A model generated the notes under the pieces. It did no database searches and had not been told where the DNA came from. It worked only from the letters and a program-made list of their open reading frames with translations. 64,000 bases of DNA. It comes from Thozetella sp. PMI_491 (lineage: Eukaryota; Ascomycota; Sordariomycetes; Chaetosphaeriales; Chaetosphaeriaceae). Every line of letters starts with the position of its first letter. Within the stretch, counting starts at the first letter, position 1. Of the stretch, positions 28,017 to 35,589 are shown piece by piece. The DNA is taken from the NCBI GenBank assembly GCA_021432635.1, contig MU270103.1:124001-188000 (forward strand). Direction: 5' to 3'. A program made the translations under genes and the position numbers.

Positions 28017-28081
28017 NNNNNNNNNNNNNNNNNNNNNNNNNNNNNNNNNNNNNNNNNNNNNNNNNNNNNNNNNNNNNNNNN
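28017..28081. other. Assembly gap (65 N)
   Basis: Undetermined bases that begin inside a G run. The gap is flanked by CTCCTG on the left (just before the G run) and CAGGAG on the right, which are reverse complements of each other. A hard-to-read G tract and/or hairpin is the likely reason for the gap. Confidence 0.95.

Positions 28082-28427: not shown

Positions 28428-28491
<64 letters not shown>
28371..28491. repeat. Poly-G / G-C homopolymer block
   Basis: The block is built only of G runs, short C runs and two A or T stretches, ending in 62 consecutive G (28430-28491). Either a real G-tract able to form quadruplexes or a sequencing or assembly artefact; its closeness to the gap favours caution. 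Confidence 0.9.
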
Positions 28492-30667: not shown

Positions 30668-33472
30668 TCATGCCCTTACGCCCCGCGAATTCACCTCGCC
30701 TTTCTCGCCAATGTTTAGCAGGATGCGGCAGTCGGGGCAGTACCACTTTGTCGTTCGGGCAGGGATCTCCTGGAGGCCGACGCACTCCAGATGAAACCAT
30801 TCGTGCTTGCAATTCTGTGCCGCGCTGTCATTAGTCTGAGACTGCGGTTTGCCGGTCCCTCGGCCATGGGGACGGCCGGGCCGGCGGTGGTCGCTGCCGC
30901 TGGAGTCGGGTCTACTCACATCTAGATTGTCGCACTGGATCATGGTTCCGTAGCTCACTCGGTTGCAGAGGCAGTAGCGAGGCTCGTCCGGGTCAATGAC
31001 GTTACCCTCGTCGTCTACCTCCACCTCGAGCGTATCGCTGCCGCCGGCATCCGCGCTTCCTCCGCTCTTGTCTTTCTTGGCCGCCTTCGCGCTCTTCTTC
31101 TTCGGCGCCGCCTTCCGCTTGGTCACCGCGCTGCTGCCCCCACTGTTAGTGCGGCTGATGACTCCCGGGGCCGGCCGTTTCGCTCGCTTGCTGGCGGGGC
31201 GCGGTGCAGGCTGCTCGCCTCGCTCTGGAGCCGGGGTGTTTCGCGCGGTACTGGCGCGGCGAGGACGGTCCACGGCAAGAGACGAGGGCGGCTCTTGGCT
31301 CGACGCTTTGCCCCTCGATACAGGCCGACGGCCGGAGGCAGCTGCAGATGCGGAGGCGCTGTTACCCGTATTACCAGAGGGCTGGGCGTCGGGGTCTGGC
31401 TTGGGCGTCAGTGGCGACGGGGTGGTGGCACGGGAGCTAGGCTTGACGGTTAGCTGTTGAGGCTGGGTTGTCTCCTTTTGCTGGTCTTGCTTGCGGGTGG
31501 CCTGTGCCTTTCGCGTCTCCCTCGTCGGGGGGAGGATAGGTGTGGTCGATTTCTTGGGAGAATGGGGCGGAAGCGGAATCGGCGTTTCTGCTGGTGGCTT
31601 CAGCGGCACAGACGTTGTGACAGTGCTGGTGCTCGCGCTGGGCCCAGGCGACGTGGCCATCCGAGCAGTTGCCTGATCCTGACCATGGACCGGCAGAGGA
31701 ATCGGAGTGGTCGAGAGTGGTATCGCCGTTGCCGGAGGAGCTACAGGGCGCTGCTGCTGCGGCGTCTGCGCTGGCTGCGTTTCCGGCTGCGGTTGCTGAA
31801 GCTGCGGCTGTGGCTGCGATTGCGGTTGCGGCTGCGGTTGCGGCTGCGGCTGCGGCTGCGGCTGCGGTTGCGGTTGCTGACTGCTGCTCTCCTGGCTCTG
31901 CTGGGTTGTCTGGGTTGTCTGGGACGTCGCCGTGCTCGTCCCGGCGGCCAGCTGGGGAGGCGGGACTGGGGTCTCCGTTTTTGTACGCTTCTGCGATCTC
32001 TCTATCAACTCGGTTTTATCTACCTCGGCCTCTGCCTCGGGGATCGAGTCCCTCTTGCGCTTCTTCGGCGGCTTGGGTGCCTTGCTGGGCGTCTTGCCTG
32101 CTTGATCTTGCTGCTTCCCCCCCTGGGGGTTAGCTGCGTCGAACATAGCTCTCGCGGCTTCGACCATCTTTCGGGCCGACTCTTCAGCCTCCTCGGCTGC
32201 CAGCTTCGCTAACTGCTCACGCTTAAGCTTCTTGGCCTCGTTCAGCTTCATACCCCGGTTGCTTAGGTTCTGCTCCTCGGCGGCTAGCGTATCTTTGCTC
32301 AGGGCTCCTGGGGGCAGCGTCTCAGCTCCCGTGTCCGGATCAACAATAGGCGCAGGAAGCATCCCATCGAAGGGCTTGCCCTCCTCTTCGGCCTTCTGCT
32401 TAGCAGCGTTGTACGCTTCGACGCCTCTGCCCAGATTCTTCAACTCTCTCGCAATCATAGTGTCGCTGGGGGCCCAGGCAGCATTTTTCTTCATCCGCTT
32501 CCTAAGTCTGGCGAGTTCCCACTGTGTGAGCTGTCCCCATGGCGCATCTACACTGCCGATCACGGCGTTCTCAGGAGGCGGTTGTAACTGTGCCAAGGCG
32601 CTGCTTGTAGAAAGTCCCGGAGCCAGAAACGGCGGAGGTACCGAGGTCCGCACCTTGGGGGTCTTGGGAGTCTTGGGCGGCTTGGAGCCCTTCTTGACTA
32701 GCTTGATCCGCGGGTGCGGGCCCGGGGTGACGCGCGCCGACTGTGAGTCGAGCTCCTCGTCGTCGTCTTCGTCCAATTCGGAGCTGCTCACGTCGTCGTC
32801 GCTGTAAGTATCGTAGTTCAAGTCGTAGGGGGCTAGGACCTCTCCAGGCACCGTAATTCTCGGCACGTTGGGCCTGCGGATCCTGGGGCCGTCCCCGCGT
32901 GGGGCGGGCTTCGGCGCGCGACTCAGCTGTGGCGACTTGGCCGTGGCGACAGGGCTCCTCTTCTCCAGCTCCTCCGCCGAGGGATAATTCTCTAGCATCG
33001 TCTGGAGCTTGGTGAGAATGGTATTGGCGCGCGTATAGTGGCGATTGATATTCTCAGCCATGCGCACGGCCTCGGCGTGCGAGTAGATGCGCGCATCGAC
33101 GGCATGGTTCAGGTTCTCTGAGATCTCAGCGCGGAGCCGCGTCGGGTTTGGCCGCTGGTCGGCCGGCAAGTTGGGAAGCTTCCCCCATTTTTTGGTGAGC
33201 TCGTGGACATTCAATGATGCGTCGTCATACTTCTTGTCGAGGTTGCCGATGAGGGTCAGCGACCGATACATGTCGGCGTGAAGGTATTCAGTGAAGTCGA
33301 GGAAGTCGGTAACGGTTGCTTGGGCATCCGGATCCGCGCGCATATCCAGGGAACCGAGAGCGCCATTACTGATGGAGCCGAGCGATGGGATGGTCGGATT
33401 CGGAGGCGACTTCTGGCGGGGGGACACCTCGCCGTCCGCGTCGGGCAGCGCAACGTCGGTGGTGGCGGCCAT
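30668..33472 (-). CDS. ING-family PHD-finger chromatin protein
   Basis: Reader subunit of a histone acetyltransferase or deacetylase complex, related to yeast Yng1, Yng2 and Pho23; which one cannot be decided here. Two exons, 33472-30920 and 30814-30668, give 899 residues; the intron (GTGAGT donor, ACTAAT branch, CACAG acceptor) splits the PHD finger. The ING domain is at about residues 53-163 (TDFLDFTEYLHADMYRSL through LTKLQTMLENYPS). The PHD finger is at 833-882 with all eight zinc ligands (Cys834, 836, 847, 853, His859, Cys862, 877, 880) and the aromatic W857 expected for H3K4me3 binding. Spacing between the third and fourth ligands is five residues instead of the usual four. The ~650 residues between are low complexity, with acidic patches, a KRKRDS nuclear-localisation-like motif and a long Gln-Pro repeat. 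The protein is two to three times the length of its yeast relatives. Confidence 0.9.
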   Translation of the reverse strand: MAATTDVALPDADGEVSPRQKSPPNPTIPSLGSISNGALGSLDMRADPDAQATVTDFLDFTEYLHADMYRSLTLIGNLDKKYDDASLNVHELTKKWGKLPNLPADQRPNPTRLRAEISENLNHAVDARIYSHAEAVRMAENINRHYTRANTILTKLQTMLENYPSAEELEKRSPVATAKSPQLSRAPKPAPRGDGPRIRRPNVPRITVPGEVLAPYDLNYDTYSDDDVSSSELDEDDDEELDSQSARVTPGPHPRIKLVKKGSKPPKTPKTPKVRTSVPPPFLAPGLSTSSALAQLQPPPENAVIGSVDAPWGQLTQWELARLRKRMKKNAAWAPSDTMIARELKNLGRGVEAYNAAKQKAEEEGKPFDGMLPAPIVDPDTGAETLPPGALSKDTLAAEEQNLSNRGMKLNEAKKLKREQLAKLAAEEAEESARKMVEAARAMFDAANPQGGKQQDQAGKTPSKAPKPPKKRKRDSIPEAEAEVDKTELIERSQKRTKTETPVPPPQLAAGTSTATSQTTQTTQQSQESSSQQPQPQPQPQPQPQPQPQPQSQPQPQLQQPQPETQPAQTPQQQRPVAPPATAIPLSTTPIPLPVHGQDQATARMATSPGPSASTSTVTTSVPLKPPAETPIPLPPHSPKKSTTPILPPTRETRKAQATRKQDQQKETTQPQQLTVKPSSRATTPSPLTPKPDPDAQPSGNTGNSASASAAASGRRPVSRGKASSQEPPSSLAVDRPRRASTARNTPAPERGEQPAPRPASKRAKRPAPGVISRTNSGGSSAVTKRKAAPKKKSAKAAKKDKSGGSADAGGSDTLEVEVDDEGNVIDPDEPRYCLCNRVSYGTMIQCDNLDVSRPDSSGSDHRRPGRPHGRGTGKPQSQTNDSAAQNCKHEWFHLECVGLQEIPARTTKWYCPDCRILLNIGEKGEVNSRGVRA
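31790..31875. repeat. Hexanucleotide repeat encoding (Gln-Pro)n
   Basis: Near-perfect TGCGGT/TGCGGC tandem units inside the ING gene encode about a dozen Gln-Pro pairs on the minus strand. It is a coding minisatellite likely to differ in length between strains without breaking the frame. Confidence 0.9.
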
Positions 33473-34715: not shown

Positions 34716-35589
34716 CTAGCCTTGATAGTCGTCCCTCTGAAGAAGCTTTGCACCGTATACTGTCTCCGACTCTTCCGCTTGGTACCAGGAATGGTCGCCG
34801 ACCGTGGTGACCGAAGCGTATGCTGTCAACGTCTTGCACTTCCTATAGTCAAGATTAGCAACTGCCGCATAGAACACCGGGCAACCGGCGCCTAGGAAAG
34901 GAAAAGGAAAGAGGGCAGGCGGAAAGGTGAGAGTCATACATGCAGCCATCGATTGTAAGCGCGCCCCAGACTTCGATTTCTTTGTGGCACTCGAACGATC
35001 CGACAATGCTAAGCTTGCCAAAGATCTTCACCTTGTCCCTGGATCGAAGTCAGTCTCGGCGGAGGGTATGTGGATGGAAGAAGCATTTGGCGCGCGATGA
35101 CTTACACGCATACCATGTTCCCAGTGATCTGGACGTTTCCGAAGGACTTGAGCTTGTTGCTGTTCCTCCCCGTCAGCATCTCTTCCCCATCCAGGCTGGA
35201 AGCATGGATCGGATGGGGGTCTAAGTGACGTACTAGCATGTTAAACTCCCGTTAACCTCGACGTTACCGTACGCTTCGATGCGGTCGCCGACGGAAAAGT
35301 CTCCGTTGAAGGTGACGGCGCCTCCAGATTTGACCGAGCCGGCGATCTCCATCGGTCCTTTGAGGTCAACCGACTTATCTGACTTTACGGCTTTCTTCTT
35401 CTTGGTGGCCGACGATGACTCGCCTTCCGTCTGGGCGGAGGCGCCGTATGGGTCTTGGGGGTTAATGGGGCTATCGAACGTCATGATCTCCTCGTACTCC
35501 ATGATGGGGTGGTCGGGCAGCGTCGTCGGGGTCGCAGCGGAGCCGGTCATCGGCGACGTAGTCGTGGCAGGCTGCTTACCCTTCTTCAT
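34716..35589 (-). CDS. Bactofilin-like beta-helical repeat protein
   Basis: Four exons, 35589-35234, 35159-35106, 35038-34940 and 34842-34716, give 211 residues. All three introns are phase 2 with GTACGT, GTAAGT and GTATGA donors. The first ~75 residues are disordered and end in KKKKAVKSDKS. From about residue 76 the chain is a regular repeat. Four consecutive units read IEAYGNVEVNGSLTCYNK, LKSFGNVQITGNMVCVDK, VKIFGKLSIVGSFECHKE and IEVWGALTIDGCMKCKT, with alternating hydrophobic residues and a Gly at the turns. This 17-18 residue period and pattern are those of bactofilins (the former DUF583, 'polymer-forming cytoskeletal' family), right-handed beta-helices that polymerise into filaments in bacteria. 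Exon 2 (54 bases) equals exactly one coil. The tail (about 35 residues, ending KLLQRDDYQG) is outside the repeats. Function in fungi is unknown to me; a scaffold role is inference. Confidence 0.85.

Follow-up and report, generated by a model that had tools for sequence, protein, structure and literature searches.

Within the 64,000-nucleotide stretch of Thozetella sp. PMI_491 DNA that was analysed (hereafter, the window), a gene of four exons and three introns, with a joined product of 211 residues, occupies positions 35589-34716 on the minus strand. Exon 1 (35234..35589, 356 nt) encodes residues 1-118 together with two bases of codon 119 and opens with the start codon and an N-terminal tail of ~71 residues, in which a TKKKKAVKSDK stretch occurs, and then covers the first two coils and the greater part of the third of the repeat described below; an in-frame TAG lies nine bases 5' of its ATG. 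It is followed by intron 1 (35160..35233, 74 nt; donor GTACGT, acceptor CAG, branch-like TGCTGAC), exon 2 (35106..35159, 54 nt, the length of one 18-residue coil), intron 2 (35039..35105, 67 nt; donor GTAAGT, acceptor CAG, branch-like ACTGAC), exon 3 (34940..35038, 99 nt; the end of coil 4, coil 5 and the start of coil 6), intron 3 (34843..34939, 97 nt; donor GTATGA, acceptor TAG, branch-like GCTAAT) and exon 4 (34716..34842, 127 nt including the stop codon TAG; the remainder of coil 6, what may be part of a seventh coil, and a polar C-terminal tail), all on the minus strand. All three introns are of the GT-AG type and in phase 2, and each brings in an in-frame stop when retained; the donors, acceptors and branch-like sites (the latter located by eye) have the look of short fungal introns. 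Rebuilding from sequence thus bears out the structure put forward in the original prediction, namely, four exons, three phase 2 introns and 211 residues.

When the product was compared by tblastn with the organism's own 72.3 Mb assembly, the four exons, including exons 2 and 3, were recovered at this single place, and no close paralogue was detected by this search, which a diverged paralogue could escape (the next matches were at E = 0.41 and 4.47). The GC3 of the coding sequence is 0.74, compared with 0.80 in the CLU and CWC22-like open reading frames of the window; the neighbours in the window include an alpha-L-arabinofuranosidase B gene and CLU, which, like the assembly size and the short introns, fit a fungal origin. 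At the gathering score, there were no Rfam matches within the window, and for the 5' region, 197 of 200 shuffles folded at least as well as the actual sequence. Frames and splice sites of the gene are intact, and the assembly search showed no close paralogue.

Downstream of the gene, also on the minus strand, there is a long open reading frame (30668-33472) with a PHD-finger-like, ING-type end recognized by eye; it gave no Pfam match at E ≤ 0.001, perhaps because the frame reads through an intron that splits the PHD finger. Inside this frame, a 6- and 18-base tandem repeat (31750-31877) encodes a Pro-Gln run. Elsewhere in the window, a 62-base G run (28430-28491) and a 65-base N run (28017-28081) are ~350 bases apart, and the stretch around them may be poorly assembled.

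An exact 18-residue repeat

In the product, six coils follow one another, each exactly 18 residues long and with no insertion or deletion (residues 72-89, 90-107, 108-125, 126-143, 144-161 and 162-179), and the motif G-x-h-x-h-x-G occurs at residues 90, 108, 126, 144 and 162. The four clear units of 17-18 residues that had been described earlier are thus confirmed and exceeded. At lag 18, 24 of 102 residues are identical, a count that was reached at any lag between 10 and 39 in none of 20,000 shuffles. Coil columns 3, 5, 9, 11, 15 and 17, i.e. three mostly hydrophobic pairs assigned as inward, have a mean hydropathy of +3.07, compared with −1.38 for the other twelve, outward columns, and this contrast was again matched by none of 20,000 shuffles; hydropathy autocorrelation has its peaks at lags 6 (0.56), 12 (0.56) and 18 (0.61). 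Column 7 is Gly in all six coils, column 11 is Cys in four of the six, the last four (C118, C136, C154 and C172), and column 18 forms an aromatic stack in coils 2-5 (Tyr, Phe, Phe and Trp).

By sequence, residues 1-71 and the last ~26 residues are hydrophilic. No transmembrane-like stretch was detected in the 211 residues (the best 19-residue mean hydropathy, 1.16, is inside the coil region), and the hydropathy scan revealed neither a hydrophobic core near the N-terminus nor a signal-peptide-like N-terminus.

In principle, open frames and signals resembling splice sites might have come together at this locus by chance, without a functional gene. However, the 18-residue pattern continues in frame over three introns, the GC3 is high, like that of the neighbours, and the periodicity was found in none of the 20,000 shuffles, so that we consider this explanation extremely improbable. 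Very probably, this is a genuine gene of the beta-solenoid type with an unusually exact repeat. Because the six-coil, three-faced 18-residue pattern is the sequence signature of a beta-solenoid, it appears highly likely that the product adopts a three-sided fold of this kind. Only two Pfam families, Bactofilin and FapA, matched below E 0.01, and both are beta-solenoid families. Of the original reading as a bactofilin-like beta-helix, the helix stands, as a coil repeat of the beta-helix (beta-solenoid) type recognized from the sequence pattern, whereas the bactofilin identity is not supported. In sequence searches of the PDB, the best match, to phage baseplate proteins, had an E of 0.21. Structure prediction for the exon 1-coded residues 62-118 alone yielded a mean pLDDT of 69.9 and a pTM of 0.32, with no secondary structure assigned, and Foldseek with this partial model, limited to residues 62-118, gave no PDB matches at E ≤ 10. 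Right-handed beta-helices are described in fungal cell-wall adhesins in the available part of PMC8746771, so that, going by that text, beta-helices in fungi are not new.

Comparison with bactofilin profiles

A repeat of this kind might belong to a true bactofilin, that is, a fungal protein of the PF04519 family that was inherited, or taken up from bacteria, has diverged and would polymerise into non-polar filaments by end-to-end joining. Consistent with this possibility, PF04519 is the best Pfam match of the whole protein (26.0 bits, E 1.1e-5; 26.5 bits for the coil core alone), and the size, the coil length and the tail-core-tail layout fit. However, both scores are below the curated cut-off of 27.9 bits, and the reversed protein scores 24.4 bits. 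The PF04519 search that had been proposed as a check of the bactofilin identity thus returned a match under the cut-off, with FapA (PF03961) matching nearly as well (22.2 bits, below its cut-off of 31). The match to MinC_C (PF03775) covers residues 67-100 only (12.4 bits, below the cut-off of 33.2). Exon 1 alone and exon 3 alone had no PF04519 match at E ≤ 10, a six-frame, exon by exon run of PF04519 over the organism's own genome gave no matches at E ≤ 0.001, and none of four scanned shuffles of residues 67-211 (nine were made) had a Pfam match at E ≤ 10.

The same comparison was made with a model of our own, built from 33 bacterial bactofilins, of which one comes from a MAG and 32 belong to a single phylum: two were taken from a Caulobacter genome, and 30 were the top matches in a sample of 200 genomes, 94 of them with a match. 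With this model, the whole protein scored 14.8 bits (14.2 reversed) and the 108-residue coil core scored 16.0 bits (15.6 reversed), values to be read with the caution that one fungal sequence on its own probes such kinship poorly and that the model mostly represents one phylum. Permutations preserving nothing but position modulo six scored as well as the coil core in 135 of 500 cases and those preserving position modulo eighteen in 37 of 500, compared to none of 500 full shuffles; in a first round with a threshold of 14.8 bits and 30 sequences of each kind, the respective numbers were 12, 3 and 0. When twelve bactofilins (the first of the 33) were each left out in turn, they scored 76-151 bits forwards and 17-34 bits reversed. 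The hhalign probability for the fungal protein was 3.6% forwards and 12.2% reversed, against 0.9 to 66.9% for eight modulo-six permutations and 0.1 to 1.4% for four shuffles.

Weak members of PF04519 show how far such scores can be trusted. Seven regions were fetched and five frames were included in the forward/reverse test (L146 and L145 were left out). Four weaker real bactofilins scored 63.3, 54.5, 46.5 and 39.2 bits forwards and 26.5, 15.9, 14.8 and no match reversed, respectively, so that a reversed bactofilin (26.5 bits) outscores the fungal protein forwards (26.0 bits) with PF04519. An adhesin-like repeat frame (L148, G013) reached 46.6 bits forwards and 25.3 bits reversed with the same model; hence, a protein without the look of a bactofilin can still exceed the PF04519 cut-off. 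The low-complexity frame L145 scored 32.4 bits with our own model, which is a further sign that such scores are unspecific. Because the reversed protein comes close and permutations that preserve the pattern frequently reach the same level, the PF04519 match of the fungal protein is what the six-residue pattern alone yields. On these sequence comparisons, kinship with bactofilins is unproven, a distant one, including a link to branches outside the phylum that dominates the model, being conceivable; the name bactofilin is to be held back, and a true bactofilin appears rather unlikely.

The N-terminus of the fungal protein (MKKGKQPA) is basic, with no hydrophobic residue at position 2, as compared to the BacA-type peptide, and the mean hydropathy of 12-residue windows that begin within residues 1-30 is at most 0.18. 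In the available part of PMC12448750, the BacA membrane-targeting peptide is given as MFSKQAKS, such a peptide being typical, not universal, and the bactofilin core is defined as a right-handed triangular beta-helix of ~110 residues.

Relatives and published eukaryotic members

In tblastn searches with the fungal protein at E ≤ 1e-3, no relatives were identified in viral contigs (12 stretches matching a pattern) or in genome contigs (102 stretches), and bactofilin alignment A1 matched none of 44 stretches of viral contigs. A plasmid search with the fungal protein returned one record, a PilV gene, at E 0.1, and the phage search 13 records, the best at E 0.03, with identity of at most 26.8% among the matches listed; the collections searched are those of bacteria, archaea, phages and plasmids and are uninformative on fungal orthologues. 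The best matches in NCBIfam and PHROGs were, respectively, MinC (E 4.1e-4; 19.9 bits compared to a cut-off of 273) and a family of unknown function (E 7.6e-5).

Among 299 genomes of the phylum that includes the Caulobacter genome, 25 contained a match to the fungal protein when the threshold was E ≤ 0.1 per genome. The strongest of these matches (6.9e-6; L146, in G081) was rejected as a candidate: it lies in a repeat frame of 371 residues, which reaches just 10.6 bits with our bactofilin model and, by eye, resembles the phage protein matching YdcK. The latter (L007:881-1510) is annotated as a 'polymer-forming cytoskeletal protein' and matches 2f9c (YdcK) at E 6.4e-16, which makes the annotation doubtful; the same annotation is doubtful for a second phage frame (L008:860-1264) that resembles the first by eye. 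Neither frame entered the later comparisons.

In the open-access literature, no paper with, judging by its title, a fungal bactofilin as its subject was found among the matches listed, and none was found on an oomycete bactofilin. The abstract of Deng et al. 2019 reportedly names Oomycetes. The accessible part of PMC7203096 contains no mention of bactofilin. According to the accessible part of PMC13393453, bactofilins occur in bacteria, archaea and some eukaryotes, and a second paper, likewise available in part, places them in a few eukaryotes; in the corresponding part of PMC12448750, bactofilin is listed with those polymer-forming proteins that eukaryotes typically lack. These reports would favor the assignment of the fungal protein to the bactofilins; at the same time, with members in few or some eukaryotes already in print, as far as these texts go, a eukaryotic member as such would not be a first.

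Intron positions and coil growth

Introns 1 and 2 are 54 coding bases apart and occupy the same coil column, 12, whereas intron 3 is in column 9, three residues earlier. This agrees with the register described in the original prediction, including an exon 2 that is one coil long, except that introns 1 and 2 do not fall right after the Cys codon: they split the codon that follows it, two bases past the Cys codon.

The shared column brings up an alternative origin, whereby the solenoid grew by coil duplication, in fungi or from another beta-solenoid family, with the bactofilin likeness due to convergence on a shared six-residue pattern and the one-coil exon left as a trace. Coils 3 and 4 (residues 108-125 and 126-143), in which introns 1 and 2 are located, show the greatest similarity among the 15 pairs (33 of 54 bases and 8 of 18 residues), although the likeness of the coil DNA may merely mirror that of the residues. 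The regularity of the repeat points in the same direction, the hydropathy autocorrelation at lags 6, 12 and 18 being far above the mean values for the 33 bacterial bactofilins (0.27, 0.08 and 0.04, respectively). However, intron 3 is out of register, and when three introns were placed randomly in six coils, some pair was in exact register in ~4.6% of the trials. Furthermore, the introns are not detectably alike (shuffles as good as the actual pair: 69 of 500 for introns 1 and 2, 55 of 500 for 1 and 3, 457 of 500 for 2 and 3). Thus, of the exon duplication proposed originally, the register of introns 1 and 2 persists as a hint, against the position of intron 3, the dissimilarity of the introns and the chance expectation. 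Growth of the helix by exon duplication is possible, judging by these sequence features, and the broader scenario of duplicated coils with convergence towards bactofilins is a tentative one, to which we would give somewhat less than even weight.

Discussion

Taken together, the observations are best explained, with moderate confidence, by a small soluble beta-solenoid rod with a polar tail that may serve as a scaffold. The N-terminal tail (residues 1 to ~71) is hydrophilic, probably unfolded, and would precede a rigid, three-sided rod with six complete coils of 18 residues and, perhaps, a portion of one more. Every coil would present three faces of six residues, with alternate residues pointing inward and stacked as ladders of V/L, I/L/V/F, M/F/L, Cys and V/I/L, with Gly occupying one corner and aromatic residues forming a ladder at a second. 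A reducing compartment is suggested by the Cys ladder in the interior and agrees with an N-terminus that does not resemble a signal peptide, and the protein might accordingly be pictured as a cytosolic (or nuclear) scaffold that offers stacked rod surfaces to partners. End-to-end joining through the open coil edges may occur as well, as in bactofilins. Beta-solenoids without caps tend to stack end to end, and bactofilins polymerise in that manner; it is from this tendency that a role in scaffolding or self-assembly is guessed, by analogy and with more doubt than assurance. A bolder version, in which a Cys-ladder beta-solenoid, either a diverged bactofilin or an independent invention with coils partly added as single exons, forms a nucleotide-independent filament or scaffold in the fungus, seems quite unlikely.

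Should the protein polymerise, a type of filament described chiefly in bacteria and archaea would be present in a fungus, and in a gene where one exon equals one coil, the growth of the solenoid would be readable from intron positions. If the diverged bactofilin or the independent invention were real, a bactofilin-type polymer would exist inside fungal cells. The results also carry a caution: a near-threshold PF04519 match of a very regular beta-solenoid was obtained from the reversed protein, too, and hence, PF04519 annotations of such proteins need a reversed-sequence control. The adhesin-like frame that passes the PF04519 cut-off calls for similar caution over naming repeat proteins polymer-forming cytoskeletal proteins.

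Several known systems resemble the putative rod. Left-handed hexapeptide beta-helices, such as those of dynactin p25/p27 and eIF2B subunits, have three six-residue faces per coil. The fungal protein would share these faces but has no hexapeptide-repeat family among its Pfam matches at E ≤ 10. The FapA domain (PF03961) and the C-terminal domain of MinC (PF03775) are beta-solenoids with a similar alternation of glycine and hydrophobic residues, and both yield weak matches, with the fungal protein well under the cut-offs of 31 and 33.2. Closer in taxonomy, Candida glabrata Awp1 and Awp3b, as described in the available part of PMC8746771, contain a fungal beta-helix with inner hydrophobic and other stacks and have bacterial relatives; they are wall-anchored and possess an alpha-crystallin cap, whereas the fungal protein analysed here lacks a signal-peptide-like N-terminus, a distinction drawn from the description. 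Bactofilins (PF04519, IPR007607; PDB 2n3d, 6ria) are alike in being small, with polar tails and a core of ~110 residues that carries a three-sided pattern with ~18 residues to the coil. In contrast to them, the fungal protein shows no obvious BacA-like N-terminal membrane peptide, scores under the Pfam cut-off and hardly above its own reverse, and is far more regular, with exact 18-residue coils free of insertions and deletions, ladders of Cys and aromatic residues, and introns.
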